Origin: Streptomyces venezuelae
GTDB taxonomy: Bacteria > Actinomycetota > Actinomycetes > Streptomycetales > Streptomycetaceae
Direction of reading: 5' to 3'
Assembly (NCBI RefSeq): GCF_008642295.1
Contig: NZ_CP029190.1
Span: 6,679,501 to 6,743,500, forward strand
DNA length: 64,000 nt
Below the pieces are notes generated by a model. The model saw only the letters and a list, made by a program, of their open reading frames with translations, was not told the DNA's origin and did not search any database. The translations under genes and the position numbers were made by a program. Each line of letters starts with the position of its first letter. Within the stretch, counting starts at the first letter, position 1. Below are positions 29,879 to 53,812 of the stretch, in pieces.

Positions 29879-30562
29879 ATGATCCACGAGGTGGACGAAG
29901 TCCTCGAAAGGCTGCTGAACGGCGGCGCGCTGGCCGGGTCCGGCATCGAGGTCTCGTTCGAGGCCCCGACCCGCGACTGGGCCGCCAGACGCAACACCAC
30001 GGCCGTCAACGCCTACCTGTACGACATCCGCGAGGAAGTGAACCGGCGCCAGCGCGGCACCGTCCCGGTAAAGGACGACCGGGGGGCCGTACTGAAGCGC
30101 CGTCAGCCGCCCCGCTGGTTCCGGCTCTCCTATCTGGTCACGGCATGGACGAAGCAGCCCAAGGACGAACACCGGCTGCTCTCCGCCGTACTGGCCACGC
30201 TGCTGCCCCGCGAGCTGCTGCCCGCCGAAGAGCTTCCGGGCTCGCTGCGCGCGCTGGGACTGTCCGTGCCGCTCACCGTCGCCGGGATCCATACCGAATC
30301 GCGCTCCCTGGCCGAGATATGGTCCGCGCTCGGCGGTGAACTCAAGCCCTCCCTGGACGTGGTCGTGATCGCCCCGTTCCCCGCGTTCCCCGAATACGAC
30401 GCCGGGCCCCCGGTCACGGAGGGCGCCGCGGTGCGCGTACGCGCCATCGACGGCAGCCTGGAGGACTCACGCCTGCGGCACCACCGGCCGCAGGACGTGG
30501 CGGCGGCGCTCGCGGCAGCCCAGGCCGCCGCCGCCCCGGGCACGGAGGCACCGCGGCGATGA
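29879..30562 (+). CDS. cis16: Cis16-like tail terminator (DUF4255)
   Basis: Cap protein thought to close the distal end of the contractile tail and stop tube/sheath growth, by comparison with Pvc16/Afp16. The 227 residues carry the DUF4255/Pvc16 N-terminal domain: MIHEVDEVLERLL ... VSFEAPTRDW ... NTTAVNAYLYDIREEVNRR ... PRWFRLSYLVTAWTKQPKDE and HRLLSAVLATLLPRELLP. The C-terminal 40 residues are Ala-rich and likely disordered. The ATG follows GGGAGCACGACG. Its last four bases overlap the start of the ATPase gene, so both are translated together. Symbol is by analogy to the Streptomyces and PVC nomenclature. Confidence 0.88.
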   Translation: MIHEVDEVLERLLNGGALAGSGIEVSFEAPTRDWAARRNTTAVNAYLYDIREEVNRRQRGTVPVKDDRGAVLKRRQPPRWFRLSYLVTAWTKQPKDEHRLLSAVLATLLPRELLPAEELPGSLRALGLSVPLTVAGIHTESRSLAEIWSALGGELKPSLDVVVIAPFPAFPEYDAGPPVTEGAAVRVRAIDGSLEDSRLRHHRPQDVAAALAAAQAAAAPGTEAPRR

Positions 30563-36125: not shown

Positions 36126-36569
36126 ATGAGTCTCCAGCCGGGTGACGCCCTCACCTCACACAATTTCGGCCTCCAGATCGACGGCGTGATGGTCGAGTAC
36201 CTCGCCGAGGTCAGCGGCCTCAGCCTTGAGCAGGACGTGATCGAGTACCAGCAGGTCTCCTCGCAGGGCAAGGCCGTCACGAAGAAGCTGCCCGGCGTGA
36301 AGAAGGCCGGGACCTGCACCGTCGTCCGCGGAATGACGCAGTCGAGCGCCTTCAACCAGTGGATCAACGAGTCGGTCACCGGCAACATGGGCACGGCGCG
36401 CAAGAACGCCACCATCATGGTGATGGACTACCAGGACAACCCGGTCAAGCGGTACAACATGCGCAACGCCTGGTGCAGCAAGGTCGACACGAGCACGGTG
36501 AAGGCCGGCGAGGCCGCCGCGCTCACCGAGACCGTGACCATCACGTTCGAAGAACTGGTCATCGAATAA
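36126..36569 (+). CDS. cis1: Cis1 inner tube protein
   Basis: Tube subunit (T4 gp19/Hcp-like), stacked as hexamers inside the sheath. The 147 residues contain SHNFGLQIDGVMVEYLAEVS, GLSLEQDVIEYQQVSSQGKA, TCTVVRGMTQSSAFNQWINE, RNATIMVMDYQDNPVKRYNM and the closing AWCSKVDTSTVKAGEAAALT, ending in a TVTITFEELVIE strand. All are typical of Pvc1/Afp1-type tubes. AAGGA lies 11 bases before the ATG. Its stop overlaps the next ATG (TAATG), so the assembly protein is coupled. Confidence 0.94.
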   Translation: MSLQPGDALTSHNFGLQIDGVMVEYLAEVSGLSLEQDVIEYQQVSSQGKAVTKKLPGVKKAGTCTVVRGMTQSSAFNQWINESVTGNMGTARKNATIMVMDYQDNPVKRYNMRNAWCSKVDTSTVKAGEAAALTETVTITFEELVIE

Positions 36570-37066
36570 TGCGTCGTACGGCTGCCAGGGCGGGGGCTGG
36601 GGCGGGCGCGGTCGCCGATGCCTCCGCGGAGGCCGTCGCGTCGATGCCGGGAACCGCGGCCGGTGCCGCCGCTCCCACCGCGCCGACGGCCCAGCGGATG
36701 GTCACGGAGTTCGCCTTCGAACTGCCCCGCGGATACGTCGACGAATCCGGCACCGTTCACCGGGACGGGATCATGCGGCTCGCGACGGCCCGCGACGAGC
36801 TGATCCCGATGCGGGACATGCGGGTGCAGGAGAACCCCGCCTACCTGTCGGTGGTCCTGCTCGGCAGGGTGATCACCCGGCTGGGCACGCTGCCGCTGGT
36901 GCACGACGGGGTGGTGGAGAACATGTTCGCCTCCGACCTCGCGTTCCTGCAGGACTTCTACCGGCAGATCAACGCCGAAGGGCACACCCGGGCGGGAGTC
37001 ACCTGCCCGCACTGTGAACAACAGTTCGAAGTCGAACTCGGCGGGAGCCGCCTGGGGGAATCGTGA
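36569..37066 (+). CDS. Injection-system assembly protein with CxxC motif (tail-chaperone-like)
   Basis: A 165-residue protein conserved in position in Streptomyces injection clusters. After an Ala-rich N-terminus (~45 residues, likely flexible) the folded part begins MVTEFAFELPRGYVDESGTV. It continues with HRDGIMRLATARDELIPMRD, YLSVVLLGRVITRLGTLPLV and FASDLAFLQDFYRQINAE and ends with a zinc-type pair, TCPHCEQQFEVEL. The look, and its position just after the tube gene, resemble phage tail-assembly proteins, but no exact family is claimed. The ATG overlaps the tube stop; its own end overlaps the next gene by 4 bases. Assembly or chaperone function is inferred. Confidence 0.7.
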   Translation: MRRTAARAGAGAGAVADASAEAVASMPGTAAGAAAPTAPTAQRMVTEFAFELPRGYVDESGTVHRDGIMRLATARDELIPMRDMRVQENPAYLSVVLLGRVITRLGTLPLVHDGVVENMFASDLAFLQDFYRQINAEGHTRAGVTCPHCEQQFEVELGGSRLGES

Positions 37067-37221
37067 CGTACGCGGCCGACCGACTGCACGAGGAGATCGC
37101 GTACGTCGCCTACCACTTCCACTGGAGCCTGGAGGAGATCCTGGACATCGAACACCGTGATCGCCGACGGTTCACCGAGCAGATCGCCAGGCTCGTGACG
37201 CGTGCCGCGGCGGAGGGGTGA
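37063..37221 (+). CDS. DUF6760-like small protein of the injection system
   Basis: A 52-codon gene from GTG: VTYAADRLHEEIAYVAYHFH, then WSLEEILDIEHRDRRRFTEQ and IARLVTRAAAEG. The pattern (E)EVAYVAYHFHWSxxEIxxLEHxxRRR is that of the short DUF6760 proteins that occur in injection-system and phage-like clusters. It overlaps the preceding gene by 4 bases and ends 4 bases before the next ATG, so it is part of the operon. Its size and helix-rich make-up suggest the second half of a tail-assembly-chaperone pair. The family name is from memory, so moderate certainty. Confidence 0.75.
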   Translation: MTYAADRLHEEIAYVAYHFHWSLEEILDIEHRDRRRFTEQIARLVTRAAAEG

Positions 37222-37225
37222 CGGC

Positions 37226-40200
37226 ATGGGACTCCTTGGCAGGCTGACGGGTGGCCCGAAGGGTGGCCGGGCACGGCAGGCGGCCACGGCGGAACCGGTT
37301 TCCGGCGCGGGTACGCCGACGTCCGCGGCGGCTCCGCCGCGGGCCCGGGAGGCCGGGTGGTCCGCGCTGCCGCCGATCCAGCGCGTGACCTCCGGCCCGA
37401 CCGGGTCGGTCGCGGACGCCGGTTTCGGCGGGCGCCTGACCACGTGGCAGGACCCGTCCTTCCGCGGGACCTTGGCCCACGCCGTGCTCGACGGTGCGCC
37501 GGGCGGCCTCGTCACGGGCTTGCTCGCCGTGCCGGCGAATCCCGGCTCCGGGCTCGAACTGCCGTCACTCACCCTGCCCGTCGTGCCGTACCGCGAGACG
37601 GATGAACACGCCCCGGGCGCACTGCCGGTGCAGCGGGCCGCCACCCTTCCGGGTCCGGCGTTCCGCCCGGCGGGCGTCGGGGTGAGCCCGGTCAAGGCCC
37701 CGTCCGCGCGCCCGTCCGCGCTCACCCGCTCCCAGCGCCCGCCCGCGGTTCAGCGGCGGACACTACCGGCAGCGCCGACGACCCCGTCCCCGGCCCTGTC
37801 CCCGGCCTCGGCCCCGGCCTCGGCCCCGGCCTCGGCCCCGGCCTCGGTTCCGTCCCCGGCTCCGGTTCCGGCCTCGGTTCCGTCCCTGGCTCCGGTTCCG
37901 GCCTCGGTTCCGGCTCCGGCCTCGGCTCCGGCTCTGGCTCCGGTTCCGGTTCCGGCCTCGGTTCAGGCCCGGGCCTCGGCCACGGCTCCGGTTCCGGTTC
38001 CGGTTCCGGTTCCGGCTCCGGCCTCGGCTCCGGCCCCAGCCTCGGCTTCGGCTTCGGCTCCGGCCTCGGTTCCGGCTCCGGCCTCGCGGCACTCGGGCGC
38101 GGAGCGGAACACGGAGCCGTCGGGTGGTGCCCCGCGCCTGGCCACTGCCTCGGCTCCTGCTCCGACCCCTGCCGTTGCCTCTGCTCCGGCTCCGGCTGCT
38201 GTGGCATCCGCGTCCCCGGACGGCCGGGCGCCGGGCCGGGCGGCGCCCGTACAGCGGAGCGCCCCTACGGGTGTACGGCCCGCCACGGCTGCGCCCGTGG
38301 TTCCCGCGCCGAGTCCGCGCGGGGGCTCTTCCGGTGCTCCGCACCCGCTCCCGGAGTTCGGCGTGTCCGAGCCCGGGCACACGCCGTCCGCCGTTCAGCG
38401 GCGTGCCGCCGACGCGGCGCAGCAGCCGGGCGCGGGCAAGCCGGTGTCCGCCGGCCCGGCCCCGGCCGCAGGGCGGACTCCGACCGGTCCCGGGGTTCGG
38501 GCGTCCGGCTCGGGCCTCGGTGTCCCGCGGTCCGTGCCCCTGGGCGGTCCGTCGGCGGCTGAGGCGAGGCCGGTCCAGCGGAGTTCGTCGGAGAGCGTGG
38601 GGCGGACCCCGGCCGCGTCGGGTGCTGCCGTGCCGTTGGGTACGCCGTCGGCTGCCGAGCCGAAGCGGGTCCAGCGGAGTACGGCCTCGGCCGGCCCCGT
38701 TGCCCCGGCGTCCGGTCCGTCCGTGCCGCAGGGTGGCTCGTCGGCTCGTGAGGTGAAGCCGGTCCAGCGGAGTTCGTCCGAGGGCGTCCCTCGGACCCCT
38801 GGCTCATCCGGTTCGGATGCTGGCCCTGTGCGTCCGGAGCCGAACGGGCATGTGTCCGCGCCCCTGAGTACGCCGTCGTCCGGTGAAGTGAGGCCGGTTC
38901 AGCGGACGGCTTCCGGCGGCGCGGGGCGGACCCCGGCTTTGCCGACGGCCGCGGCTCCCGTGCCCGCTTCCGGTCCGGTCGGAGTTCCCTCCGCCGGCCC
39001 GCGCCCGCTTCAGGCTCCCGACAGGTCGAGCCAGTCGGGAGCGGCCGTTCCGCTGTCCATCCCGACCAGTGGCCCGGTGTCTCCCGCCGGGAGCACGCCG
39101 TCGGCCGGGCCGGCGGCCCCCGTTCAGCGCAGCACTCCCGGCCGGCCGCGGCGAACGGGACTCGGCAAGCCGATATCCGCCGGACCCGTTCCTGCTCCAG
39201 CCCCGTATGCGGCCGTGCCCGCTGCTCCCGCGTCGTCCCCTGCCCGGCCTGCCGGCGCTCATCCGTCCCCGACCACGCCGTCGGCCGGTCAGGCGACGCC
39301 GGTCCAGCGGCACACCGCCGACACGGCACGGCAGCCGGACCTCGGCTCGCCGGTGCCCTCAGCCGGCCTGCCCGGGCTGCCCTCGGCGGGCGCACCCCGG
39401 TCGGCGGCATCCGCGGACATCGGGACCCTCACGGGCGGCGCCGGGACGCCGGCTCGGACACCCGGGCCGCCGCGCGGGCAGGGCCATGCCGTTCAGCGTG
39501 CCGCCGCAGCTCCCGACGCCCGCCCCGCTCCCGGCGCCCCGGGCGCTCGGGGCATTCCCGCGGGTTCCGCGCCGGGTGCGGCCGGGCGGCCGACGGCTGC
39601 CCGTGCGGGCACGGCCTCGGCCCCGCCGGCCCCGCCCGCCCCTCTTCCCGTACGGGCGCTCGCTCCCGCACGTGCCCTCACCTCCGCCTCCCCGTCCCTG
39701 CCGCCGGCCGTTCCCGCCCGGCAGCATCCGCAGGCCCGGGCGGCCGTGCCGCTGCGCCGCGGTCCTTCCGCACCGCCCGTACAGCGCGCCCCGGCGGCGA
39801 CGGGGCGGCCCGCCCCGATGTCACCACTGGCGGGGCCGGCCACTTCCGTCGCGCCGGGGGCCCGGCCTGCCGGGCCCGGCAGGCCGAACACCCCGCCGGT
39901 CGCGCCGGGCGTATGGGCGCATCCCGCGCGAGGGCTCCCGGTGCAGCGTCTCTCCGCGCCCGGTCCGTCGTCGGGGAGCGGGGCCGCCACCCCGCTCCCC
40001 GCCGGCTCGGCAGTGCGAGCCGGGGACGCTCCCGGGGCGCGGCCGGGTGCCGGGGTGACCGGCGCCGGCGGCCATCTCCCCGGCCCGGTACAGGGCTCCC
40101 CGCTGCCCATCGGCACGCAGACGGCGCAGCCCGCCCCCACTGTCCTGCCGGTGCAGCGGTTCCCCGCCACGCCTCCGCTGCCGCTACCGCCGCCTCCCGT

Positions 40201-40522
40201 GGTCCGTACCGCGCCGGCGCCGCCCCCGGTGCCGCCCCCGGTGCCCCGCACCGTGCAGCGCGCCCCCGAGCCCAAGACGCCACAACTCCGGTCGCAGTCA
40301 CCACCACAACCGAGGGAGCAGCGGCCGCAGCACGACCCCGACCCCGCACCGTCGCGGGCGCACCCCCGCGTGACCGACGGCGCGTTCAGTCCCCGTTCCC
40401 TCACCGACTTCCAGCTCGACGAGTTGGCGCACCGGCTGATCGGCCGGATCACACGTCAACTCCGCACCGAACTCCGGCTCGACAGGGAGCGCGTCGGAAG
40501 GCTCCGCGACCCGCGCAACTGA
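37226..40522 (+). CDS. 1098-residue low-complexity VQR-repeat protein of the injection-system operon
   Basis: A long Pro/Ala/Ser-rich protein between the tube and the second tube-like gene. Residues 1-130 look partly ordered ([55 protein letters not shown]). Then come ~900 disordered residues with a short-period PASAPASAP repeat and 15 VQR motifs plus one IQR, mostly PVQR followed by S/T/A/R ([35 protein letters not shown]). The last ~45 residues form a probable helix: [20 protein letters not shown] then [20 protein letters not shown]. Position would suit a tape-measure, scaffold or cargo adaptor. No tape-measure of normal type is seen elsewhere. VQR recurs in the DUF4157 protein and the NC-peptidase at the cluster end. 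Function unknown. Confidence 0.75.
37788..38090 (+). repeat. Short-period tandem repeats inside the VQR-repeat gene
   Basis: About 300 bases made of variants of a six-base unit (GGCCTC / GGCCCC / GGTTCC / GGCTCC with CG), encoding PASAPASAP and PAPVPAS runs. The repeat is in frame, so length changes would alter only the protein's spacer. The unit number cannot be fixed exactly because copies are imperfect. Confidence 0.8.
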
Positions 40523-40594: not shown

Positions 40595-41020
40595 ATGCCC
40601 CGCGATCTCGACCCGGGCTCCACCATCTTCTTCACCCTCACCATCGACGGCGAAAGCCTCGGCTTCTTCAACGGGTGTGAGGGGCTCTCCTCCACGGTGG
40701 AGATCGAGCAGCGCCACGAGGGCGGCAACAACGGGTTCGTCTGGCAGCTGCCGTCCCGGGTGACCTTCTCCACCATCCGGCTGACCCGGCCCCTGACCCC
40801 GGACACCGCCAAGGTCGCGGCCTGGATCTCCTCCGTGACCACGGGCGTCACCCGGCCCACCGCCCAGATCGCCGCGCTGCGCGCGGACGGCTCCGAGGTG
40901 GCCCGCTGGGGGCTGATCGACGTGCTGCCCGTCAGCTGGCAGGGGCCCACCCTCGACCCGGCGAGCCCGAGCGTCGCGACAGAGGTCCTGGAGATCACGC
41001 ACCACGGATTCACGGACTGA
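40595..41020 (+). CDS. Second tube-like protein (Cis5-type, tube initiator)
   Basis: A 141-residue T4-gp19/tube family protein, MPRDLDPGSTIFFTLTIDGE, then GFFNGCEGLSSTVEIEQRHE, NGFVWQLPSRVTFSTIRLTR, LIDVLPVSWQGPTLDPASPS and the closing TEVLEITHHGF strand. It differs from Cis1, and by position next to the LysM gene corresponds to Pvc5/Afp5, the tube-initiation or adaptor ring between spike and tube. A good CGCAGAAAGG site lies before the ATG. It is followed 14 bases later by Cis7. Confidence 0.85.
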   Translation: MPRDLDPGSTIFFTLTIDGESLGFFNGCEGLSSTVEIEQRHEGGNNGFVWQLPSRVTFSTIRLTRPLTPDTAKVAAWISSVTTGVTRPTAQIAALRADGSEVARWGLIDVLPVSWQGPTLDPASPSVATEVLEITHHGFTD

Positions 41021-41034
41021 GAGGACGGCAGCAC

Positions 41035-41796
41035 ATGGCAGGCAACGGAGGACGAGGTGGCGGCGGTGGCGGTGGCCGCAAGGGCGGTGGCGCGGGCAAG
41101 AGCCTGGTGCGCGCCTCGCTGGCCGTTCACGAGCCGCCGATCGGCCAGAGCACCACACCGGGCGCGCTGATGAAGACGTTCACCTTCGCGTTCAACCCGT
41201 CTCAGCTCGCCCTCAGCCGGCGTGCGCAGTGGAAGACCACGCCCACCGCCGCGGTCCGCGACGGCGCCGTCCCGGAGTTCATGGGGCCCGAGCCCCGCGA
41301 GATGACGGTGGAGATCTTCTTGGACTCCTCCGGTGTGCCGGGCAGCAACTCGGTGATGAAGAAGGTGGAGGCCCTGTTCTCCTGCTGCGAGGTGACCACG
41401 AAGAGCATCGCGGCCAAGCAGCCCTCCACCCCCTGGGTCGTGTTCCAGTGGGGGGCCTTCTCGACGGCGCGCTTCACGGCCTACGTCTCGTCCGTCGACG
41501 CCGCCTACTCGCTGTTCAGCACGACGGGCGTCCCGATCCGGGCCACCTGCCAGGTGCGGCTGCACGAGATCCCGAGCAAGACCAAGGGGCAGAACCCGAC
41601 GTCCGGCGCGCTGACCGCGCAGAGCGTGCACCGCGTCGTCGCGGGCGACACCCTGCAGTCGCTGGCATGGCGGGAGTACGGCGACGCGAACGCGTGGCGG
41701 GCCATCGCCGAGGCCAACGGCATCGACGACCCGTCCGGGCTGCGGACCGGCACGGAAGTGGTGCTTCCGGCGGCCGAGGAAGTGGGTGGTCACTGA
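41035..41796 (+). CDS. cis7: Cis7 baseplate hub protein with LysM domain
   Basis: Baseplate/hub protein, 253 residues. After a Gly-rich start (NGGRGGGGGGGRKGGG) comes the conserved KTFTFAFNPSQLALSRRAQW core, then PEFMGPEPREMTVEIFLDSS, VVFQWGAFSTARFTAYVSSV and TCQVRLHEIP. A C-terminal LysM fold occupies about 199-247 (HRVVAGDTLQSLAWREYGDA ... AIAEANGIDD). This is the Pvc7/Afp7 and T4 gp53-LysM arrangement, which clamps the hub to the spike. GAGAGGACGG precedes the ATG. The stop overlaps the spike start (TGATG), so the two are coupled. Family placement by domain order and neighbours. Confidence 0.9.
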   Translation: MAGNGGRGGGGGGGRKGGGAGKSLVRASLAVHEPPIGQSTTPGALMKTFTFAFNPSQLALSRRAQWKTTPTAAVRDGAVPEFMGPEPREMTVEIFLDSSGVPGSNSVMKKVEALFSCCEVTTKSIAAKQPSTPWVVFQWGAFSTARFTAYVSSVDAAYSLFSTTGVPIRATCQVRLHEIPSKTKGQNPTSGALTAQSVHRVVAGDTLQSLAWREYGDANAWRAIAEANGIDDPSGLRTGTEVVLPAAEEVGGH

Positions 41797-43700
41797 TGGT
41801 GCAGGCGTCCTTCTCCAACGTCGTCCACGTCTCGATCGGCGGCGGCAAGCTCCCCGACCACATCGCCGACGACCTCGTCGACGCCTGGGTCGACCTCGGA
41901 GCCGGCGTCCCCGGCGCGTTCCGGCTCACCTTCCGCGACCCGCACGGGCTGCTGCTCGGCGAGCTGAAGGTGAAGTTCGGCACCAAGGTGGTCGTGTCGC
42001 CCGTGTCGGCAGGCAAGGGCGCGGGTTCGCCGCTGCTCACCGGCGAGGTCACCGGCATGGAGACCGACTACGACGGCAACGGCACGTTCACCGTGATCCG
42101 CGGCTACGACCTGGGCCACCGGCTGATGCGGCAGCGCAGGGTCGCCGCGTACCGCAACCAGACCGCCGCCGACATCGTCCGCAAGCTGGCCGCGCAGAGC
42201 GGCATTCCGATCGGCAAGGTCCAGCCCACCAAGACGGTCTACGAGTTCATCAGCCAGTCGAACGTCACCGACTGGGACTTCCTCTCCCGGCTCGCCGACG
42301 AGAACGGGATGGTGATGTCGCTGGACTCCAAGGGCATGTTCCGGTTCGTCGTGCCGGTACCGGCCGCCGGCGCGCCGGCGCCGAGCACCGAGGGCGAGAA
42401 GAGCCCGTTCGTGCTGCACGCAGGCCAGGACGTGCTGCGCTGCCGGGCCGCCGTCACCTCCGCGGACCAGATCGGCAAGGTCGAGTCGCGCGGCTGGGAC
42501 GTCGCCACGAAGCGGGCGCTCACCGCGCTGGCGCCCGCGACCACCACCCGGGCCGTCGCCATCGGCACCACCCCGGGCCAGGCGGCATCGGCGTTCAAGC
42601 CGGGCAAGCTGGTGGAGACCGAGACTCCGTACGGCCGCCAGTCCGAGGTCAAGTACGCCGCCGACGCGCTCGCCGACGACATCACCTCCTCCTTCGCCGA
42701 GCTGGAGGTCACGGTGCGCGGCAATCCGAAGCTGCGCCCCGGCGTGCCGGTCACGCTCCGGGACGTGGGCACCCCGTTCGAGGGCAAGTACACGGTCACC
42801 GCGGCACGGCACGTCTTCGGCGACGACAGCCACTACCAGACCTGGGTGACCGTCAGCGGCCGGCAGTGGCGCTCCCTGTACGGCCTTGCCTCCGGCGGGG
42901 GCGGCGGGGCCGCGCCGAGGCTGCCGAGCGTGGCCAACGCGCTGGTCACCGACGTACAGGACCCGCTGAAGCAGGGCCGGGTCAAGCTGCGGTTCCCGTG
43001 GCTGGACGCGACGTACGTCAGCGACTGGACCCGTACCGTGCAGATGGGCGGCAAGGCGGGGGGCGGGATCTTCCCCCTGGACGTCGACGACGAGGTGCTG
43101 GTGGCCTTCGACCGGGGGGCCCTGGACCACCCCTTCGTCATCGGCGGCCTGTACAACGGCCGGGACAAGCCGACCCCCGTCGCCGACGTTCCGCTGCACG
43201 ACGGACTGCGGAAGAAGGCGATCCGGCACACGCTGTCCGACCGGGACGGCAACCGGGTGGACCTGCTCAGCCAGACGACCGGGGCGCGCAAGCAAGGCGT
43301 GCGCATCGCCACCGGCAACGACCGGCTCACCATCAACCTCGACCGGACCAAGACCGAGATCACGGTGGACAGCAAGGGGTCCGTCTCCATCACGGGCAGC
43401 CGCTCGGTGTCGGTGGAGGCGGGCATGGACCTCACGCTGAGCGCCGGCCGGGCCCTGACCATCAAGAGCGGCGGTCCCCTCACCATGCAGGGCCGCGGGA
43501 TGGTCAGCCTCCGGTCGCTCGGCGGCGCCGTCAACGTGGACGCGCTGGGCGCCCTCAGCCTCAAGGCGGCGGGCGCGGCAACGGTCACCGCGGGCGGGAC
43601 GGTCCAGGTCAACGCCGTTGCGAACGTGGGCATTCGGGCAGCTTCGCTCCTCCTCCAGGGCGTGGTGCTGGTCAACAACAAGCCGTATCCGATCCCGTGA
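41796..43700 (+). CDS. cis8: Cis8 VgrG-like spike protein
   Basis: Trimeric spike at the tip of the tube, 634 residues, combining T4 gp27- and gp5-like parts as in VgrG. The N-terminal gp27-like part shows GEVTGMETDYDGNGTFTVIR, GYDLGHRLMRQRRVAAYRNQ and SQSNVTDWDFLSRLADENGM. An OB-fold follows a Gly-rich linker (RVKLRFPWLDATYVSDWTRT, GIFPLDVDDEVLVAFDRGAL, HPFVIGGLYNG). The C-terminus is a repetitive beta-helix (DSKGSVSITGSRSVSVEAGM, LKAAGAATVTAGGTVQVNAV) ending NNKPYPIP. The start is the ATG overlapping the Cis7 stop. No PAAR tip gene is visible, so the beta-helix itself may form the tip. Confidence 0.93.
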   Translation: MVQASFSNVVHVSIGGGKLPDHIADDLVDAWVDLGAGVPGAFRLTFRDPHGLLLGELKVKFGTKVVVSPVSAGKGAGSPLLTGEVTGMETDYDGNGTFTVIRGYDLGHRLMRQRRVAAYRNQTAADIVRKLAAQSGIPIGKVQPTKTVYEFISQSNVTDWDFLSRLADENGMVMSLDSKGMFRFVVPVPAAGAPAPSTEGEKSPFVLHAGQDVLRCRAAVTSADQIGKVESRGWDVATKRALTALAPATTTRAVAIGTTPGQAASAFKPGKLVETETPYGRQSEVKYAADALADDITSSFAELEVTVRGNPKLRPGVPVTLRDVGTPFEGKYTVTAARHVFGDDSHYQTWVTVSGRQWRSLYGLASGGGGGAAPRLPSVANALVTDVQDPLKQGRVKLRFPWLDATYVSDWTRTVQMGGKAGGGIFPLDVDDEVLVAFDRGALDHPFVIGGLYNGRDKPTPVADVPLHDGLRKKAIRHTLSDRDGNRVDLLSQTTGARKQGVRIATGNDRLTINLDRTKTEITVDSKGSVSITGSRSVSVEAGMDLTLSAGRALTIKSGGPLTMQGRGMVSLRSLGGAVNVDALGALSLKAAGAATVTAGGTVQVNAVANVGIRAASLLLQGVVLVNNKPYPIP

Positions 43701-43758: not shown

Positions 43759-44199
43759 ATGGCCGAGCAGTTCGTCGGGTCCGGCTGGGCGTTCCCCCTG
43801 CGCATCGGACCGACCGGTGGCATCGCCCTGGTCAGCGGAGAGCGGGAGATCGAGGAGGCCATCCAGCTGGTCCTGGCGACCGCGCCGGGCGAGCGGCCGA
43901 TGCGGCCCGAATTCGGCTGCGCCATCCACGACCTGGTCTTCGCGCCGGTCAACGAGGCCACCGCGGGCCGTATCCAGCACGAGGTGTACCTCAGCCTCGA
44001 CCGCTGGGAGCCCCGGATCGAGGTGACGGACGTCGAGGTGACCTCGGGCTCCGAGCAGGGCGTGCTGTTCATCGACATCCGCTACGCGATCCGCGGCACC
44101 AACAACCCGCGCAGCCTTGTCTTCCCCTTCTACGTGATCCCCTCCCACGACGGGCCCGGCGACGGCGGCTCCGGCAACTCATCGGAAAGCGAACGCTGA
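43759..44199 (+). CDS. cis9: Cis9 gp25-like baseplate wedge protein
   Basis: Baseplate wedge subunit of the T4 gp25 (lysozyme-like fold, non-enzymatic) family, 146 residues. It contains GSGWAFPLRIGPTGGIALVS, EREIEEAIQLVLATAPGERP, MRPEFGCAIHDLVFAPVNEA and RIEVTDVEVTSGSEQGVLFI, matching the sequence pattern ERPMRPEFG of gp25 proteins that trigger sheath assembly. GAAGGAGGGT precedes the ATG; 58 bases separate it from the spike stop. The stop overlaps the next ATG (TGATG). Confidence 0.92.
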   Translation: MAEQFVGSGWAFPLRIGPTGGIALVSGEREIEEAIQLVLATAPGERPMRPEFGCAIHDLVFAPVNEATAGRIQHEVYLSLDRWEPRIEVTDVEVTSGSEQGVLFIDIRYAIRGTNNPRSLVFPFYVIPSHDGPGDGGSGNSSESER

Positions 44200-46157
44200 T
44201 GGCCCTTCCCTCCCCGAACCTCGACGACCGCCGCTTCCAGCAGTTCGTCGACGACGCCAAGCGCTACATCCAGCAGCGCGCACCCGAGTGGACCGACCAC
44301 AACGTCTCCGACCCGGGCGTCACCCTCGTGGAGACGGTCGCGCACATGGCCGATCAGATCGTCTACCGGCTGAACCGGGTGCCGGAGAAGAACCACCTGG
44401 CCTTCCTCGACCTGGCGGGCATCACGCTGTTCCCACCGTCGGCGGCCCGTACGGACGTGACGTTCTGGCTCTCCGGGCCACAGGAGGAGCCGGTGGTGCT
44501 GCCCGCCGGCACCGAGGTCGCCACCACGCGGACCGAGAGCGAGGAGCCGGTCGTCTTCGCCACCGAGTACGAACTCTCCGTCGTTCCCGCCGAGTTGCTC
44601 CATCTCGTGCTGCAGCGCCACGGGGAACCCGTCGCCGACGTGACCGCCGACCTCGCCGAGGGCAAGGACGTGATGTGCTTCGCCGAGGCCCCCAAGCCCG
44701 GCGACAGCATGCTGCTCGGGCTCAGCGCGGCCCTGCCCCACTGCGCGGTCGCGCTCGTGCTGGACAGCCGTGTCGACGGTGTCGGCGTCGACCCGAGGCA
44801 GCCGCCGCTCGTGTGGGAGGCGTGGACCGAGGACGGCTGGGTTCCCTGCGAGGTCGACCGGGACGGCACCGGCGGGCTCAACCGGCCGGGCGAGGCCGTG
44901 CTGCACGTCCCCGGCGGGCACACGCTCTCGCGCACCGGCGGGCGGCAGGCCGGCTGGCTGCGCTGCCGGGTCACCGAACCACTGCCCGGCCAGCCCTTCT
45001 ACGCCACCTCTCCGACCGTGCGCTCCGCCGAGGCTTTCACCATCGGCGGTACCACCGGCGTCGTACACGCCGAAACCGTGTACGACGAACCCCTCGGCGA
45101 ATCCACCGGCCTGCCCGGCCAGCGGCTGCGGCTGGCGCACGCGCCCGTGGCGGCCGGCGACCCGCCGATGCTGCTCCAGACCGCCGAGGACGACGGCTGG
45201 CGGGACTGGGCAGTCGTCCCCCACTTCGCCGCCTCCGGCCCGCACGACCGGCACGTCACCCTCGACGCCACCTCCGGGGAGGTCGCCTTCGGTCCCGCGG
45301 TCCGGGAGCCGGACGGCACCCTGCGGCAGTACGGGGCGGTACCCCCGCAGGGCGCGGTCATCCGGGCGAGCCGCTACCGCATCGGCGGTGGCCGCGCCGG
45401 GAACGTGGCCCGCGGCGCGGTGCGGGTGCTGCGCAACTCCGTCCCGTACGTCTCCGAGGTCGTCAACCGCGAGGCGGCACGCGGCGGGGTCGACGGCGAG
45501 ACGGTGGAGGAGGCCAAGGCCCGGGCGCCGATTACCCTGCGCGCCCAGGAACGTGCGGTGACCCTGCGCGACTACGAGGAACTGGCGCGCCGCGCCGCCC
45601 CCGAGACGGCACGGATCGCCTGCCAGGAGGGCGAGGAGAGCGAGCACGGTGCGTACGCGGTACGGGTGCTGGTGGTCCCGCAGGCGGTGTCGGACCCGGG
45701 CGGGCGGCTGCGCTTCGAGCAACTGGTCCCCGGTGACCCACTGTTGCGGCGCATCACCCGCCATCTGGACGAGCGCAGGCTCATCGGGACGCGGCTGGCG
45801 GTGGGCCCGCCCTTCTACCAGGGCGTGACCGTCGTCGCCACCGTGCACGCCTTCCGCGGCGTGGACGCCGACCTGGTGCGGCAGAAGGCGCACGATGCCC
45901 TCTACCGCCACCTCGACCCGCTGACCGGCGGCGCCGACGGCACGGGCTGGCCGTTCGGCCGCCGGGTCCAGGCGGGCGAGATCTTCGCCGTGCTGCAGCG
46001 CGTGGCCGGCGTGGAGCTGGTCGACGAGGTCTGGCTGCACCCGGCGGACCCGCTGACCGGAAAGCGCGGCGAGGCCACGGACCGGATCGACCTCGAACCG
46101 TCGGCCCTGGTGTTCTCCTTCGACCACCGGGTGCGTGTGATCGGAGACGAGGCATGA
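44199..46157 (+). CDS. cis11: Cis11 baseplate J-like protein
   Basis: Large baseplate wedge subunit (T4 gp6/phage baseplate J family), 652 residues. N-terminus: LPSPNLDDRRFQQFVDDAKR and PEWTDHNVSDPGVTLVETVA with HMADQIVYRLNRVPEKNHLA, the signature start of this family. Middle: a beta-rich insertion with LWVxxx-like repeats. C-terminal J core: APITLRAQERAVTLRDYEEL, RRAAPETARIACQEGE and RVQAGEIFAVLQRVAGVELV. The upstream open frame in front of the ATG is a shadow of cis9. The end overlaps the next start by 4 bases (ATGA). Confidence 0.93.
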   Translation: MALPSPNLDDRRFQQFVDDAKRYIQQRAPEWTDHNVSDPGVTLVETVAHMADQIVYRLNRVPEKNHLAFLDLAGITLFPPSAARTDVTFWLSGPQEEPVVLPAGTEVATTRTESEEPVVFATEYELSVVPAELLHLVLQRHGEPVADVTADLAEGKDVMCFAEAPKPGDSMLLGLSAALPHCAVALVLDSRVDGVGVDPRQPPLVWEAWTEDGWVPCEVDRDGTGGLNRPGEAVLHVPGGHTLSRTGGRQAGWLRCRVTEPLPGQPFYATSPTVRSAEAFTIGGTTGVVHAETVYDEPLGESTGLPGQRLRLAHAPVAAGDPPMLLQTAEDDGWRDWAVVPHFAASGPHDRHVTLDATSGEVAFGPAVREPDGTLRQYGAVPPQGAVIRASRYRIGGGRAGNVARGAVRVLRNSVPYVSEVVNREAARGGVDGETVEEAKARAPITLRAQERAVTLRDYEELARRAAPETARIACQEGEESEHGAYAVRVLVVPQAVSDPGGRLRFEQLVPGDPLLRRITRHLDERRLIGTRLAVGPPFYQGVTVVATVHAFRGVDADLVRQKAHDALYRHLDPLTGGADGTGWPFGRRVQAGEIFAVLQRVAGVELVDEVWLHPADPLTGKRGEATDRIDLEPSALVFSFDHRVRVIGDEA

Positions 46158-48171: not shown

Positions 48172-51100
48172 GTGCGGACACAGCAACAACCGGGGAACGG
48201 ACGTACCGGTGACTCCCGGCAGCCCCCTCACGTGCCACTCCCCACCCGGCAGCCCGCCGGCAGCGCCGATTCCCACGCTCTGCTCGCCTTACAGCAGACC
48301 GCGGGAAACGCTGCCACCGCGCAGACCGTCGGCCCGGTGGGGAGTGGTACCGCCGGCGCCGACCCGGCGTGGGAACTGCCGTCGTATCTGATGAACCTGG
48401 AGGCGGGCGGGCTCTCCTCGGCGTACGGGCTGACCGGGCACGACTTCGTGCCGCACGCCATCGGCGCGGTGGTCGGGCACCGCGACGGCACCGTCGCCGA
48501 GATCGGCGACGAGCTGGCCGGGCGCCCGGAGACCTTCTACGGACAGGGCCGCGCCTTCACCGTCCGCGGTGGGACGGGCAAGGACTGGTACGACGTGACC
48601 GTGCGCGTCCACCGGGCCGCCGGCGATCGGCCGCCCACCTACCGGAAGAACCTCCCGGCCGGCGCCGCGCCGGGCCCCGACGGGACACCGCAGGCCGAAC
48701 TGGAGGACCCGGAGGGCAAGGACACCAAGGTCGACGTCCACCACAACACCGCCGCCGTCGCGAGCAGCACGGCCGGCAACGCGTCGAGCAAGGGCGCCGG
48801 AGGCCTGGCCTTCGGGCTCGCGCCCGTCGCGCCGGGGCTGTGGGCCGGTGGCGCCGTGACCGGCAGCGTCCAGCCCTGGCAGTCCTCCCGCGAGTCCCGC
48901 CGGCAGCGCTACGTGGCCGAACCACGCGTGCTGCGCAGCGACAAGGGCTCGGTCGAGGTGCCGCGCCAGGTCGGCTACGAGGTGCGGTTCAAGAAGCACG
49001 GCGGCCGGGGCGCCACGACCTACCGGGGCTCCGGCACCCTCACCCAGCGGGTGCCGATCGAGCACCTCGTCCCCATCGGCACCAGCGCGCCCGCCCCGCC
49101 GCGGAGCCTCACGGCGGACACTGCCCGAGCCGTCTCCCTCGCCGACTCCCTGGCACCCGTCGCCGTGACCGACAGCGCCGCCCCGCACCAGGGCGGCGGC
49201 GGGCTCTTCGACGCGGTCGCCTCCGTCATGCACCCCACGGTCACCGCGCCCGGCGCGCCCGGCCGGGACCGGCTGCTGGCGGCGACCTCCACGACGACCC
49301 TCCTGGAGGACCTGCCGCGGCTCCTGCGCGACGGCGTCACCGGCGAGGACCTGTACTCCAAGGACGGCGAATCGGTCGGAAGTTACCACCTGCACGCCGA
49401 GATCAGGAGCCTGATTCCCGCCTGGGGCACCGGCAAGACCCAGCTCCGCACCCACCAGCAGTCGCAGACCTCGGTCACGGAGAGCGCCGGCAAGGGCCGG
49501 GCCGTCCAGGGCGGAGCGGGCCCGGCGTTCGGCTTCGGGGCGGCGGGCAACGCCGCCGTCGTCCGGGCCACCGCCATGCCCGTCGCCGCCGCCCGCAAGG
49601 CCCGCTTCACCGCAACCGAGCAGAGCGTCTCCAGCCGCCAGGGCGCCGAGGTCCGCGGTGAGAAGGTGCTCTACTTCGGGAGGGTGATCTTCACCGCGGA
49701 GGGTACGGGCCCGCGCTCGCCGGAGATGGTCCTGCGCCCGGGAACCCGGGTGGCCACGCACTCGATGAACGTGTGGGTCAGCCTGCGGGCCGACGAGGCG
49801 CAGGCGTTCGGACTGCCGCTGCCGGCGGGAACGACGGCCGGGGACTTCGTGAAGAAGCCCACGAGGACCGACGCGGACGGCAACGAGGTGGAGGTCGAGC
49901 GGCACCTCCCGTTCGGCGGCAAGGGATCGAACGTCGCCCTCAGCCGACTCGACACCGGACCCATGATCCGGGCCGTGCACCACCTGTTCACCACCGACCC
50001 GCGCCTCGCCGGCTACCTCCCCGACTTCGGCTCCACGCCACCCGCCGCCGACCTCGGCAGGGACGAGGCCGAGACCCAGCGGCGCAACCACCGAGAGTTG
50101 ATGACCGCCCTCTCGGAAACCAACCTCCGCGTCAACAAAGACCAGTTGATATCCACCGGCATCCGCGTGCGGCTGCGCCGCAAGACGAGCCTGCACTCCC
50201 ATGACGTACAGCTCCTGGTCAAGGGCACGCTGGGCCAAACCGACTACCAAGGCGACATCAGGGACTGGTCGGTACGCAGCCACTCCGGGGTCACCGGCAA
50301 CGCGCAGAGCAGCCGCAGCAGTTCGCGGTCGATCGGCGGACTGGTCCTCGGCCAGGCCCGCGTCGTACCCGGCTTCATGACCGCCGGCGCCCGCCACGAG
50401 CAGCACAGCTCCGGCACCCGGCACAACCAGGCGGGGCCCACCGGCCGTACGGACATCGTCTCCAACGGCTCCGACACGGCCGCCGCCTTCAACGCGGCCC
50501 TCAACCTCGACGTGGAGGTCACCATGACCTCCCGCCGGCGCCGGCTCGCCCGCAGCGTCACCCCCGGCCTGCCGGGCCGCACGGTCCCGGAAGCCCGGAC
50601 CATGACCACCCTCAGGACCGGCTCCCAGGACGTACGGCTGGTCAGCCCGACCGAGTTCACGGTGGACGAGTACGGCAAGGACCGGCTCGGCGTGTTGGCC
50701 GCGGAGCGCCGCGGCCAGGCCGCCGCACCAGAGCACGACTTCGCCGCAGCGGGCATCGGAGACCTGGCCGCGCTCACCCCGCAGCCGTCCACCGGGGCCC
50801 TGCTGCGCGACTGGCAGCTGGTCGAGACCCTCGACGGGGCACCCGTACGGGCCCTCGCGCTCCAGTTGCTCTCCCGGGCCGCCGCCGGCAACAACGCCCT
50901 GCGCGAGGATCCGGCACTGGCGACGGAGGGGCTCGCGCCCCGCCTCGCCATCGAGGAGCGGTTCGGCGAGCGCGCCATCCAGGGCGCCCTGCGGCAGGCC
51001 GCTTCCTCCGGATGGGTGGTGAAGAACCTCCGCTACCCGCGGCGCCTCGCGGGCCTCAACGGCGCCGTCGGCGTCCGGCTCTCCCTCGCCAACCCCACAT

Positions 51101-53139
51101 TCCTGCACAAGGGCGCGGGCCCGGGAACCGAGACCTTCGTGCTCGGCGGGCACCAGTCCGCCGGACAGATCGGCCAGGGCACCTCCCACACCACGCAGTT
51201 CGGCGCCACCGTCACCGAGACGGGCCCCACGTGGCGGACCGGCCAGGGCGTGGCGGTGTCCCGCACATCCGGCAAGGGCGACGCCGAGTCCTTCAGCCTG
51301 GCCGGCACCATCGAACGCAACGCGCACACCCCGAAGAAGGCCCCGCTGTACCTGGTGCAGTGCGACGTACTGGTCAACATGGTCGCCGAGGTCAAGGTCA
51401 CCGGAGGCGGCCCCTACGTGGCCAAGGGAGTCCGCACCCTGCCCGCCGCTGCGGGGGTGTGGCTGACGGAGGCCCAGCTGCCGCCGGAGATCAAGCGGCA
51501 ATTGGGGCGCAGCCGGCGGCCGGTACCGACCGCGGGTGCGGCTGCATCGGAGGCCGCAACTCCGGCCGCCCCGCGACTCCGCAGGAACCGGGCACTCGGC
51601 TTCGGTGTGATCGAGGACATGCCGGACTTCGTCCCGTTGCTCGGGCAGTTGCGTACCAGCCTGTCCGGCCTGGGCGGGAACATCGGCGAGGACCTGCTGC
51701 CCCGGCAGCAGCTCAAGGACCGCAACGACAACGTGCAGCGACTGCTGCGCGTCCTGGACCGGGACGGCTCCGCCGGGCTGCTGTCCAGCGCCATGGACGG
51801 CGGAGTCACCGTCGAACTGTTCGACGGGCGCAAGACCCCGTACTGGGCCGTCTTCAAGATCCTCCAAGTGGGCGACGGGAGGGCCGCGGGCGCAGCGGAC
51901 GCGGGCCGGGACATGGAGTACATCACCTCCGCCGTCGCACAGCACGCCACCTCCCACGACGAGGGCTCCGCCGTCGGAGTCGAAGGCATCCTCGCCGGAT
52001 CGGGCCGCCCCGAGGGCGGCACCGGCCAGGTGAAGGGGGTCGGCGGTGCGGCGGGCATCGGAATCGCGTCAGGGAGCTCGCGGCGCAGCGGTGCGGTGAG
52101 CCGCGGCCAGCTCGGCATGAAGTCCGTCGCCGACAGCTCCGCGCGCTCGGACCTGATGCACCTGCCGATCCGGGCAAGCCTCGAACTGTACAAGGGGGAC
52201 AAGCGGCTGGCGCTGGCCCAGATGGTCAACCTGACGCTGACCCAGCGCATCCTGCGCAAGGACCTGGAGGCCCTCTCCCGCATGCGGCTCCCTGCGGCCG
52301 ACGCACGGTTGGCCGCGCGCGGCTGCCGCGACACCGGCGGGGCCGCCCTCGCCGCCTGGCGGGCGGCCGGCGTGCGGCTGCCGATGGAGGCGCAGGTCAA
52401 CGGGTTCCAAGGAGCCGGGCAGGTCAGGGAGCTCGTGAACTCGGCCGTACGGGAGGCGGGCGGCGGCGACCGCTTCCGCGCCAAGGGGCAGGCCGGCGCC
52501 TACGCCCTGAACGAGGCGGTGTCCACCGAGTGGCTGACCGCCGCGCTGCCGCTGCTCGCCACGTCCGGGGCCGACCTGCCCCCGGTGCACGCCTCCGGAG
52601 CGGAGGGTCAGGACCTGCGGGGCTCCGTGCACGCCCGGCTGCGCAACGGACGGGTGCTGGGCCTCGGCGACAGGATGACCTTCGAGACCATCGGCCAGAG
52701 CCACCTGGACGCGCCCCGCCCCACCCAGACGGACGGCCAGAGTTCCGCCGACCACGGCAGGTCCGCCCGCCCGGTGTTCGGTGCGGGGGTGCTCAACGCC
52801 ACCGAGTTCCGGCTCAACCAGCTGCTGGGCAACACGGGCGGCTCGGGCGGCACGACCGACGCCACGGCGAACTCCTCCGGCTCAATGCCGGTGCACAAGC
52901 CGAAGATGAAGGCGGTCCTGGTCCAGTTCACCCTGGACGTCAGGGTGATGGCCCACGTCACCAGCCGGGTCCGGGGCCGCACGGCCACGGCGGTACGGGA
53001 GCTGACCCTCGCGCAGCCGGTGGTGGTCCGCATGCCGGAGCCCGTGGTCCGCCGCATGCTGGCCACCCAGAGCGACCGGCTGACCGACGACGGAAACCAC
53101 CTGGCCCCGACCGGCGCGGCTCCCGCCTTCTACGCGTGA
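48172..53139 (+). CDS. 1655-residue repeat protein, candidate injection-system cargo
   Basis: The largest gene of the cluster, from GTG with GGGGGAGA upstream. Residues 36-52 read ALLALQQTAGNAATAQT, the AGNA signature shared with the two next genes. About six divergent modules of ~240-295 residues follow. Each has a Ser/Gly/Gln-rich hairpin then a beta-strand pair, near residues 200 (TAGNASSKGAGGLAFGL), 436 (AGKGRAVQGGAGPAFGF), 707, 1002 (GTSHTTQFGATVTETG), 1282 and 1519 (TDGQSSADHGRSARPVF). Each is followed by strands such as YLVQCDVLVNMVAEVKV or VLVQFTLDVRVMAHVTS. No catalytic motif, signal peptide or membrane span is recognised. No family is claimed. It overlaps the convergent DUF4157 gene by 10 bases. 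Cargo or adaptor role is inferred from the N-terminal signature and position. Confidence 0.75.
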   Translation: MRTQQQPGNGRTGDSRQPPHVPLPTRQPAGSADSHALLALQQTAGNAATAQTVGPVGSGTAGADPAWELPSYLMNLEAGGLSSAYGLTGHDFVPHAIGAVVGHRDGTVAEIGDELAGRPETFYGQGRAFTVRGGTGKDWYDVTVRVHRAAGDRPPTYRKNLPAGAAPGPDGTPQAELEDPEGKDTKVDVHHNTAAVASSTAGNASSKGAGGLAFGLAPVAPGLWAGGAVTGSVQPWQSSRESRRQRYVAEPRVLRSDKGSVEVPRQVGYEVRFKKHGGRGATTYRGSGTLTQRVPIEHLVPIGTSAPAPPRSLTADTARAVSLADSLAPVAVTDSAAPHQGGGGLFDAVASVMHPTVTAPGAPGRDRLLAATSTTTLLEDLPRLLRDGVTGEDLYSKDGESVGSYHLHAEIRSLIPAWGTGKTQLRTHQQSQTSVTESAGKGRAVQGGAGPAFGFGAAGNAAVVRATAMPVAAARKARFTATEQSVSSRQGAEVRGEKVLYFGRVIFTAEGTGPRSPEMVLRPGTRVATHSMNVWVSLRADEAQAFGLPLPAGTTAGDFVKKPTRTDADGNEVEVERHLPFGGKGSNVALSRLDTGPMIRAVHHLFTTDPRLAGYLPDFGSTPPAADLGRDEAETQRRNHRELMTALSETNLRVNKDQLISTGIRVRLRRKTSLHSHDVQLLVKGTLGQTDYQGDIRDWSVRSHSGVTGNAQSSRSSSRSIGGLVLGQARVVPGFMTAGARHEQHSSGTRHNQAGPTGRTDIVSNGSDTAAAFNAALNLDVEVTMTSRRRRLARSVTPGLPGRTVPEARTMTTLRTGSQDVRLVSPTEFTVDEYGKDRLGVLAAERRGQAAAPEHDFAAAGIGDLAALTPQPSTGALLRDWQLVETLDGAPVRALALQLLSRAAAGNNALREDPALATEGLAPRLAIEERFGERAIQGALRQAASSGWVVKNLRYPRRLAGLNGAVGVRLSLANPTFLHKGAGPGTETFVLGGHQSAGQIGQGTSHTTQFGATVTETGPTWRTGQGVAVSRTSGKGDAESFSLAGTIERNAHTPKKAPLYLVQCDVLVNMVAEVKVTGGGPYVAKGVRTLPAAAGVWLTEAQLPPEIKRQLGRSRRPVPTAGAAASEAATPAAPRLRRNRALGFGVIEDMPDFVPLLGQLRTSLSGLGGNIGEDLLPRQQLKDRNDNVQRLLRVLDRDGSAGLLSSAMDGGVTVELFDGRKTPYWAVFKILQVGDGRAAGAADAGRDMEYITSAVAQHATSHDEGSAVGVEGILAGSGRPEGGTGQVKGVGGAAGIGIASGSSRRSGAVSRGQLGMKSVADSSARSDLMHLPIRASLELYKGDKRLALAQMVNLTLTQRILRKDLEALSRMRLPAADARLAARGCRDTGGAALAAWRAAGVRLPMEAQVNGFQGAGQVRELVNSAVREAGGGDRFRAKGQAGAYALNEAVSTEWLTAALPLLATSGADLPPVHASGAEGQDLRGSVHARLRNGRVLGLGDRMTFETIGQSHLDAPRPTQTDGQSSADHGRSARPVFGAGVLNATEFRLNQLLGNTGGSGGTTDATANSSGSMPVHKPKMKAVLVQFTLDVRVMAHVTSRVRGRTATAVRELTLAQPVVVRMPEPVVRRMLATQSDRLTDDGNHLAPTGAAPAFYA

Positions 53140-53765
53140 GTGCCGGGAGCGGCTTCCTCGGTTTCCTGCGCGGGCACCGGACGGCCCATCACGGCCTGGG
53201 CATTGGCCTCCGCCGCACGCTCGAAGCGGTCGGACGGGTCGCTGACGCGCAGGCCGGCTCCGTTGTCGGTACCGGCGACGGCCCCCTGGCGCTGCTGGAT
53301 GACGTGGGTGAGCTCGTGGGCGAGCGTGTGCTTGTCACCCCCGCCCTCGCCGATGACCACGTGGCTGCCCGACGTGTAGGCGCGGGCGCCCAGTTCGGCC
53401 GCGGAGCGTCGGGCGGCGCTGTCGGTGTGGAGGCGCACGTCCGAGAAGTCGGCGCCCAGGCGTGCCTCCATCTCCGACCGTGTGGCGTTGTCCATCGGAC
53501 TCCCGGCCGCCCGCAGGACTTCGTGGGCGGCGGAACGCTGCACGGCGGGAGCCTCCGCCGAGTGCCCGCAGCCGGCGCCGTGCCGGTGCTCCTCCTGAGC
53601 CCATTCATGGCCGGCCTGACGGAGCATCTGGACGACGGCGGCGTTGCCCGCCGCGCTCTGCAGCCCCAGCAGCCCGTGGCCGGCGGCGTTCGCGGGGGCG
53701 GCGGGGCTGCGCCGGGGCGCGGGATCCCGCTTGACTGTGGGGTCCTTCTCCTTCGCGGAAACCAT
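53130..53765 (-). CDS. DUF4157 (eCIS core) protein
   Basis: A 211-residue protein of the family most tightly linked to injection systems. Residues 35-48 read LQSAAGNAAVVQML. A CxH-rich stretch (HRHGAGCGHSAEAP, near 60-72) and a VQR (75-77) precede the DUF4157 domain: MDNATRSEMEARLGADFSDV, RLHTDSAARRSAAELGARAY, the zinc-metalloprotease-like HELTH (150-154) in KHTLAHELTHVIQQRQGAV, and FERAAEANAQAVM. The chosen ATG follows GGAAGG; an ATG six codons upstream is less supported. It is on the minus strand, convergent with the 1655-residue gene. DUF4157 proteins often form the N-terminal part of injected toxins; here no toxin domain is attached, so it may be a processing peptidase or adaptor for other cargo. 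Confidence 0.9.
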   Translation of the reverse strand: MVSAKEKDPTVKRDPAPRRSPAAPANAAGHGLLGLQSAAGNAAVVQMLRQAGHEWAQEEHRHGAGCGHSAEAPAVQRSAAHEVLRAAGSPMDNATRSEMEARLGADFSDVRLHTDSAARRSAAELGARAYTSGSHVVIGEGGGDKHTLAHELTHVIQQRQGAVAGTDNGAGLRVSDPSDRFERAAEANAQAVMGRPVPAQETEEAAPGTHA

Positions 53766-53812
53766 GGGTCCTTCCTCATTCACGGCCTGAACCGCAGGCC
53801 GGGTCCCCGGGG

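Follow-up and report, generated by a model that had tools for sequence, protein, structure and literature searches.

How does a contractile injection system (CIS) of Streptomyces fix the length of its particles when its gene cluster is said to hold no tape measure? In S. coelicolor, all analysed particles were reported to be equal in length (268 nm, with 61 sheath and 60 tube layers) and the tape-measure gene was called absent (PMC12237407). A typical tape measure was likewise said to be absent from both Streptomyces clusters studied in PMC10066040, and the S. lividans CIS was described in the same way (PMC10286715). The question is raised again by a 64,000-nucleotide stretch of Streptomyces venezuelae DNA (contig NZ_CP029190.1, positions 6,679,501 to 6,743,500, hereafter the window; host genome of 7.5 Mb, single contig), in which the gene cluster at 29.9-48.1 kb is a class IId CIS. 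Within this cluster, the gene at 37226-40522 (+) encodes a Pro/Ala-rich protein of 1098 residues with an array of VQR motifs, and lies between the tube and tail-assembly-chaperone genes and the hub genes. We lean towards the reading that this protein is an unrecognised ruler (tape-measure type) of the class IId CIS, anchored at the hub, with the VQR motifs as docking points for DUF4157, the extracellular CIS (eCIS) core domain, or for the tube. The most useful reading of the reported absence is that the gene is present but unrecognised.

Sequence and conservation of the 1098-residue protein

Translation of the gene bears out the initial annotation, which had been made from the letters alone: 1098 residues with no internal stop contain 15 VQR motifs and one IQR (18 QR in total), the sites are mostly PVQR (10 of the 16), and the chain is rich in proline (20.5%) and alanine (19.5%). 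It is the largest structural open reading frame (ORF) of the operon, and a second possible start, GTG at 37202, lies upstream of the one used here. The protein gave zero matches in Pfam, NCBIfam, PHROGs and the PDB; PF13699, the model for DUF4157, is thus among the Pfam families that it does not match. The gene and its two conserved ends are as follows.

37226..40522 (+): Pro/Ala-rich 1098-residue protein, proposed ruler (tape measure); translation, 15 VQR and 1 IQR
37358..37519 (+): conserved N-terminal block, residues 45-98, W..LPPIQR..VAD..FGGRL.TWQ.PSF
40400..40519 (+): C-terminal Arg-rich segment, residues 1059-1098, proposed hub anchor; conservation

It had been suggested that only about the first 130 and last 45 residues are folded. 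By conservation, the blocks that stand out are at about residues 45-98 and 1059-1097, and the Arg-rich C-terminal segment is predicted from its sequence to form a helix. One of the sequence sets used for the N-terminal block was picked by the pattern PPxQR, and the invariance of QR there is a product of that selection.

The C-terminal 44 residues are matched in 126 of 295 genomes of the genus, and the 80 regions fetched from those 126 supplied most of the 108 sequences that were read. An orthologous long ORF with this C-terminus was recovered in 93 of the 108 (several of the other 15 are cut or frame-broken), and 91 were left after near-identical ones had been removed, 88 of them with lengths of 906-1433 amino acids (aa). 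In the loci listed, the long ORF stands between the chaperone and the tube initiator, a place referred to below as the slot. One orthologous frame (L063) reaches 1876 aa through an upstream extension. On the S. clavuligerus plasmid pSCL4 (L033:16092-20237), the gene table of the record, by its own account incomplete, omits the 1381-aa orthologue and has a hypothetical protein for just its last 71 residues, which may be part of the reason why the gene has been overlooked. More broadly, the low complexity of the protein, the lack of a family model and missing or hypothetical annotation suggest how it escaped notice, and no publication on it was found in the open-access literature (supplements excluded).

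Statistics of the VQR array

The core of the 1098-residue protein holds 16 [VI]QR motifs, where 300 shuffles averaged 0.27 and never gave more than 2, and the 91 orthologues hold 12.6 on average against 0.19 when shuffled. The motif counts that follow were made on 87 proteins, that is, the 91 without L049, L063, L131 and L093 (odd start or frame, masked N, cut), or on 86 where L114 (cut) was also left out, as it was from the end-block conservation. The 87 proteins contain 994 VQR where composition predicts 14.4 (69-fold), IQR is enriched 48-fold and LQR 7-fold, and VQK occurs six times in total. The motif is present in all 87 retained Streptomyces orthologues, with the consensus P-(P/A)-(V/I)-Q-R-(A/S/R/T). 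Its count increases with protein length (rho 0.65, 86 proteins), and the sites are spaced more evenly than by random placement, with a median of 65 residues and a coefficient of variation (CV) of 0.51 vs 0.89 (72 proteins). A second conserved element, GLGxP, occurs 100 times, and only 51 of these sites lie at most 25 residues after VQR.

The 1037 VQR sites are written in 37 synonymous codings and their codon use follows the background; selection on VQR thus acts at the peptide level, and a DNA-level repeat was ruled out as its origin. GC- and Pro-rich composition was also ruled out as the source, since CisA, a protein with a similar linker, is depleted in the motif (3 vs 11.5 expected, 100 proteins). 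In the sheath, Cis1a, chaperone, LysM, spike, gp25, J, I and CisA proteins of the same loci (99-107 proteins each), [VI]QR stands at 0-0.74 of expectation; nine of ten neighbouring operon proteins are thus depleted, and the tube initiator is the exception. In this control, the tube initiator showed 27 [VI]QR against 5.4 expected; a closer count placed 11 within its 107 matches and 17 in frames over-extended upstream, which leaves a mild excess. A genome-wide search with a string of VQR repeats gave six weak matches (best E 0.005).

The flat GC content by codon position (0.80/0.76/0.81) would suit a spurious gene or neutral low-complexity sequence, as would the pSCL4 table with its last 71 residues only. 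We give this explanation next to no credence: the frame stays open in 93 of the 108 sequences, its ends are conserved and VQR is kept despite free codon choice, and an artefact or neutral sequence is ruled out by this recovery, the enrichment of VQR and the codon freedom. We conclude that the feature is genuine, that it is conserved and that selection acts on it.

Gene order of the cluster

The cluster runs from a Pvc16-type cap and an AAA ATPase through sheath, tube, tail assembly chaperone, the 1098-residue protein, tube initiator, LysM, VgrG-like spike, gp25-like, baseplate J and Tail_P2_I to a CisA-like protein. The features that class IId calls for were found in the window, namely sheath, tube, Cis1b, Cis7, Cis11, Cis12, Cis16 and the AAA ATPase, and the system is close to that of S. 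coelicolor (CISSc). The best PDB matches of the hub proteins Cis7 and Cis1b are to entry 9gtp, which we take to be the CISSc particle.

29879-30562 (+): Pvc16-type cap protein; PF14065
30559-32601 (+): AAA ATPase; PF00004
34400..36028 (+): sheath (Cis2); PF04984/PF17482
36129..36569 (+): tube (Cis1a); PHROG_4542 tail tube
36569..37066 (+): tail assembly chaperone with zinc-ribbon-like CPHC; PHROG_508 tail assembly chaperone, E 2.3e-4
40595..41020 (+): tube initiator / second tube protein (Cis1b); PF06841; PDB 9gtp_a
41035..41796 (+): LysM hub protein (Cis7); PF19266, PF01476; PDB 9gtp_P
41802..43700 (+): VgrG-like spike (Cis8), approximate start; translation, and same-place gene in a relative annotated VgrG-related
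43759..44199 (+): gp25-like (Cis9), approximate start; translation, synteny
44199..46157 (+): baseplate J (Cis11), approximate start; PF04865
46154..46711 (+): Tail_P2_I (Cis12); PF09684
46714..48147 (+): CisA-like membrane protein with its own disordered linker; VQR negative control

Three plasmid relatives of the chaperone carry the annotation "phage tail assembly protein". In contractile phages, the tape measure gene lies between the tail assembly chaperone and the hub genes.

Slot proteins in other lineages

When the class was searched with the chaperone, 42 of 296 genomes and 19 of 114 genera had it. Forty loci from the class and order searches were read, together with named plasmid loci. 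With a profile of the C-terminus, a long, mostly low-complexity protein was found in the slot of 41 of the 57 loci, in five bacterial phyla, where a match means at least 500 aa and at least 13.7 bits, a limit set after the list had been seen. The profile was built partly from the same proteins, so the result characterises a family and provides no independent test. Among the 16 loci without a profile match, six lie on cut contigs (L206, L221, L229, L232, L233, L239) and L218 has no chaperone match; the rest are the actinobacterial L032, L213, L216, L217, L228 (a weak 242-aa match) and L238, the archaeon L250, the cyanobacterium L255 and the Bacteroidota plasmid L257. L213, L216 and L217 do have a long Pro-rich ORF, from which the helix is absent.

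Outside Actinomycetota, slot proteins occur in four Deinococcus plasmids (1506-1973 aa), Nostoc (524 aa), Kovacikia (2316 aa), Paenibacillus (532 aa) and Paraburkholderia (878 aa). Five more named Deinococcus relatives measure 1640-1820 aa, and a protein search gave one further relative of 1122 aa. Arrays of at least four motifs are found in Streptomyces, a family of the same order (23-27 motifs, four loci), four further actinobacterial families (7-11) and the cyanobacterium Kovacikia, whose slot protein carries 14 [VI]QR and 8 [VI]QK in a Glu/Ser-rich chain, part of it with an exact period of 33 residues; in the Streptomyces set, no sharp peak of VQR at that period was seen. On the Kovacikia minuta plasmid (L246:19162-26112), a 99-bp tandem repeat in the gene of this 2316-aa protein carries SVQRSQAEP amid acidic, Ser-rich sequence. 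Of the 41 slot proteins, 25 hold just 0-2 motifs, which places the array outside the common core of the slot protein. The expected conservation of VQR thus stands for Streptomyces and fails in other lineages, where the protein is present without the array; the basic role therefore does not depend on VQR, and the idea that VQR is an essential element of the slot protein was ruled out.

In Nostoc, Paenibacillus and the actinobacterial loci L240-L244, the slot lies between the tube initiator and LysM, which is the place of cis6, and Alg6 has a C-terminal helix and forms a trimer in the spike cavity (PMC8894135). On these grounds the protein could be a relative of Cis6/Alg6, the small plug by which the spike is sealed, that has been enlarged by a tail with no ruler function. 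This explanation is highly improbable in our view. The C-terminal profile and the 53-aa product in the cis6 place of Persicobacter gave an hhalign probability of 0.2 (a single-sequence comparison, and a weak test), and the profile matches in the PDB were designed coiled coils and unrelated enzymes, with no plug among them; homology to the plug is unsupported by either search.

Link to DUF4157

PF13699 matched once in the whole genome, in the following protein.

53130..53783 (-): DUF4157 / eCIS core protein; VQRS at the domain edge; the only PF13699 match of the genome

The one VQR that the initial annotation had reported for this protein is there. The two motifs (VLQR and VVQR) given for a candidate effector were not recovered, as the 1655-residue ORF at 48172-53139 holds a single [VIL]QR (NVQR, residue 1188) vs 1.16 expected; another ORF may have been meant. 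The candidate effector (48172-53139) and the DUF4157 protein (53130-53783) have an N-terminal LLxLQxxAGNAA segment in common.

The motif recurs in DUF4157 homologues, taken here as the best 120 of 2538 matches, the named ones mostly from Streptomyces. The 118 with HExxH contain 218 [VI]QR vs 14.8 expected and 113 of them carry the motif; at the domain edge, 71-80 residues ahead of HExxH, there are 107 occurrences, and 97 are found 40-89 residues past it. A readable HExxH frame was found in 22 of 31 Pfam-model loci, and 19 of these 22 have at least one [VIL]QR. Nine relatives have the eCIS core domain inside the slot protein itself (Deinococcus L245, L247, L248, L249; actinobacterial L210, L211, L214, L234, L235), with 165-251 residues from the end of the fused domain to the C-terminus in all nine, and the slot protein of L215 has a PF13699 match under the cut-off. 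The Pfam scan covered all 25 array-less and 8 of the 16 array-bearing slot proteins, and some fusions were known beforehand; PF13699 was found in 9 of the 25 vs 0 of the 8 (Fisher two-sided p 0.073, for lineages that are non-independent). On the Deinococcus aquaticus plasmid (L245:19841-25762), the open frame is 1973 aa long and the record lists its last 591 residues only, as a DUF4157 protein. Pull-down experiments in the literature point to contact of DUF4157 proteins with the tube initiator and the spike (PMC11126660, PMC13277306).

Given that VQR is common to the 1098-residue protein and the edges of DUF4157 domains, and that some lineages without the array have slot proteins with a built-in DUF4157, the protein could instead be a cargo rail or loading scaffold. 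Disordered and multivalent, the chain at the hub would use its VQR motifs to hold DUF4157 effectors for loading into the tube, and length would be set otherwise. The effector-dependent filling of the lumen (PMC10066040) would agree with this. We nevertheless think it unlikely, as the gene position is that of tape measures and 15 of the 25 array-less slot proteins also have no detected DUF4157 (a 16th, L215, falls under the cut-off); a VQR rail therefore cannot be the general role.

Alternatively, the chain could be a transient scaffold or ruler that is cut after VQR, possibly by the metalloprotease-like DUF4157 domain, and then cleared for cargo. The Arg at a fixed place, the small or basic next residue (logo A/S/R/T), the VQR at the edges of DUF4157 domains and the HExxH that is invariant among 50 aligned DUF4157 proteins would all suit such cleavage, and a cleared scaffold would fit its absence from the particle proteins named in the available part of PMC10020575. 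Still, we regard the cleavage explanation as quite unlikely. Toxicity of Cgo1 is independent of its metalloprotease motif (PMC11297309). The position in front of QR is as tightly constrained as the R, with enrichments of 69-fold for VQR, 48-fold for IQR and 7-fold for LQR. Such strictness before QR is unusual for a trypsin-like site.

Protein length and particle length

If the slot protein measures the tube, its length should go with that of the particle. Particles of ~295-300 nm were called considerably longer than those of other eCIS, at ~120 nm (PMC10020575), and lengths of 217 nm in Roseiflexus castenholzii, 238 nm in C. chliarophilus and 365 nm in D. aquatilis were reported (PMC12998442); the Anabaena particle was given as 119 nm. 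For S. coelicolor, the five nearest named relatives with a full-length protein (Cis7 identity 92-97%) have slot proteins of 1353-1357 aa in four cases and 1300 aa in one. Three pairs can be formed: the 524 aa of Nostoc with the 119 nm of Anabaena, the 1300-1357 aa of the S. coelicolor relatives with 268 nm, and the 1506-1973 aa of nine Deinococcus proteins with the 365 nm of D. aquatilis. They give a rough scale of ~2 Angstrom per residue, but the species of protein and particle are never matched, so this is a consistency check only.

Length constancy was compared with that of the CisA linker in 20 pairs from 43 loci, with duplicate genomes removed, and the median relative length difference was 4.3% vs 17.2% (p 3.9e-4). 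The linker lies between two zinc-ribbon-like segments and has a length CV of 32% (48 non-redundant loci).

Several observations weigh against a ruler. The difference from the CisA linker is no longer significant once scaled for a random walk (p 0.19), which makes the test mixed, and among wider relatives of S. coelicolor the orthologue length spans 1280-1433 aa. No sequence or profile match to known tape measures was found in Pfam, NCBIfam, PHROGs or the PDB, a Pro-rich chain cannot adopt the usual alpha helix, and VQR arrays are missing in many lineages. The published particles point the same way. In the available part of PMC10020575, mass spectrometry names sco4242, sco4256 and sco4251 as particle proteins of unknown function, none of them from the expected pair, SCO4249 or SCO4250, one of which is, by gene counts, the probable S. 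coelicolor counterpart. Most components were detected by mass spectrometry in PMC10066040, where particles of an effector triple mutant look normal and ~85% of lumens look empty. The CISSc cryo-EM model has nine proteins, and the accessible text of PMC12237407 describes no such chain. A lone disordered chain may be invisible, or may be lost or cut after assembly, but for now this would be no more than an excuse for its non-detection. Positive charge fitting a negative lumen was dropped as a general argument, as the median charge is +0.047 per residue in Streptomyces (86 proteins) but negative in Deinococcus, Kovacikia and others.

Proposed role as a ruler

Three functions had been offered in the initial annotation: a multivalent scaffold, a substitute for a tape measure and a chain of cleavage sites. 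The tape-measure substitute is best supported, by the gene position, the size of the protein as the largest structural ORF, the conserved predicted C-terminal helix and the similar slot protein in several phyla. A multivalent scaffold would fit both the VQR array and the DUF4157 fusions. In the ruler reading that we favour, the C-terminal helix would be seated in the hub made of Cis1b, Cis7 and Cis8, and the long low-complexity chain would extend up the tube, with Cis1a rings polymerising around it, so that chain length would fix the number of rings. The VQR sites, at fairly regular intervals, would be short linear motifs at which a partner docks; the most likely partner is the DUF4157 domain of cargo or adaptor proteins, or else the tube lumen. 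Protease sites would be the main alternative for these motifs.

More tentatively, and with a modest chance of being right, we propose that a disordered ruler with no coiled coil both measures tube length and acts as a periodic docking rail, that VQR binds the DUF4157 adaptor domain of separate cargo, and that the eCIS core domain is at root a ruler module. Were VQR to bind the DUF4157 domain of cargo, measuring and loading would be one process. The array would be absent where DUF4157 is built into the ruler, as in Deinococcus and some Actinomycetes.

The slot protein thus offers a concrete tape-measure candidate in the expected place of S. coelicolor-type systems, in which length control is directly testable. 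Through the common short motif and the natural fusions it also gives a clue to DUF4157, the as yet unexplained eCIS core domain, and so bears on cargo loading.

Comparison with known systems

Like the Cis6/Alg6/Afp6 plug, the protein has a gene slot shared in several lineages, a predicted C-terminal helix and a proposed site at the hub (PMC8894135, PMC8894136); unlike the plug, whose Persicobacter candidate has 53 aa, it is long, and no homology between the two was detectable. With the tape measures of phages and R-type particles and with Afp14, it has in common a long chain of variable length whose C-terminal end is proposed to sit at the hub. It differs from them in its Pro/Ala-rich low-complexity sequence, its VQR array and its lack of a coiled coil and of any sequence match. 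In the antifeeding prophage, the gene for Afp14 lies elsewhere in the cluster. The type III secretion rulers YscP and FliK are partly disordered and Pro-rich and span ~2 Angstrom per residue; they belong to a different machine and have no VQR. Of the S. lividans proteins Sle1 and Sle2, Sle1 is unlike the 1098-residue protein in being a coiled-coil effector whose gene lies upstream of the sheath (PMC11126660, PMC13277306). Tme of Streptomyces davawensis ends in a nuclease, whereas the 1098-residue protein has neither DUF4157 nor any Pfam domain, but Tme is encoded just upstream of the baseplate genes, is mostly disordered and carries DUF4157, and in these respects it resembles the DUF4157-fused slot proteins (PMC11126660, PMC13277306).

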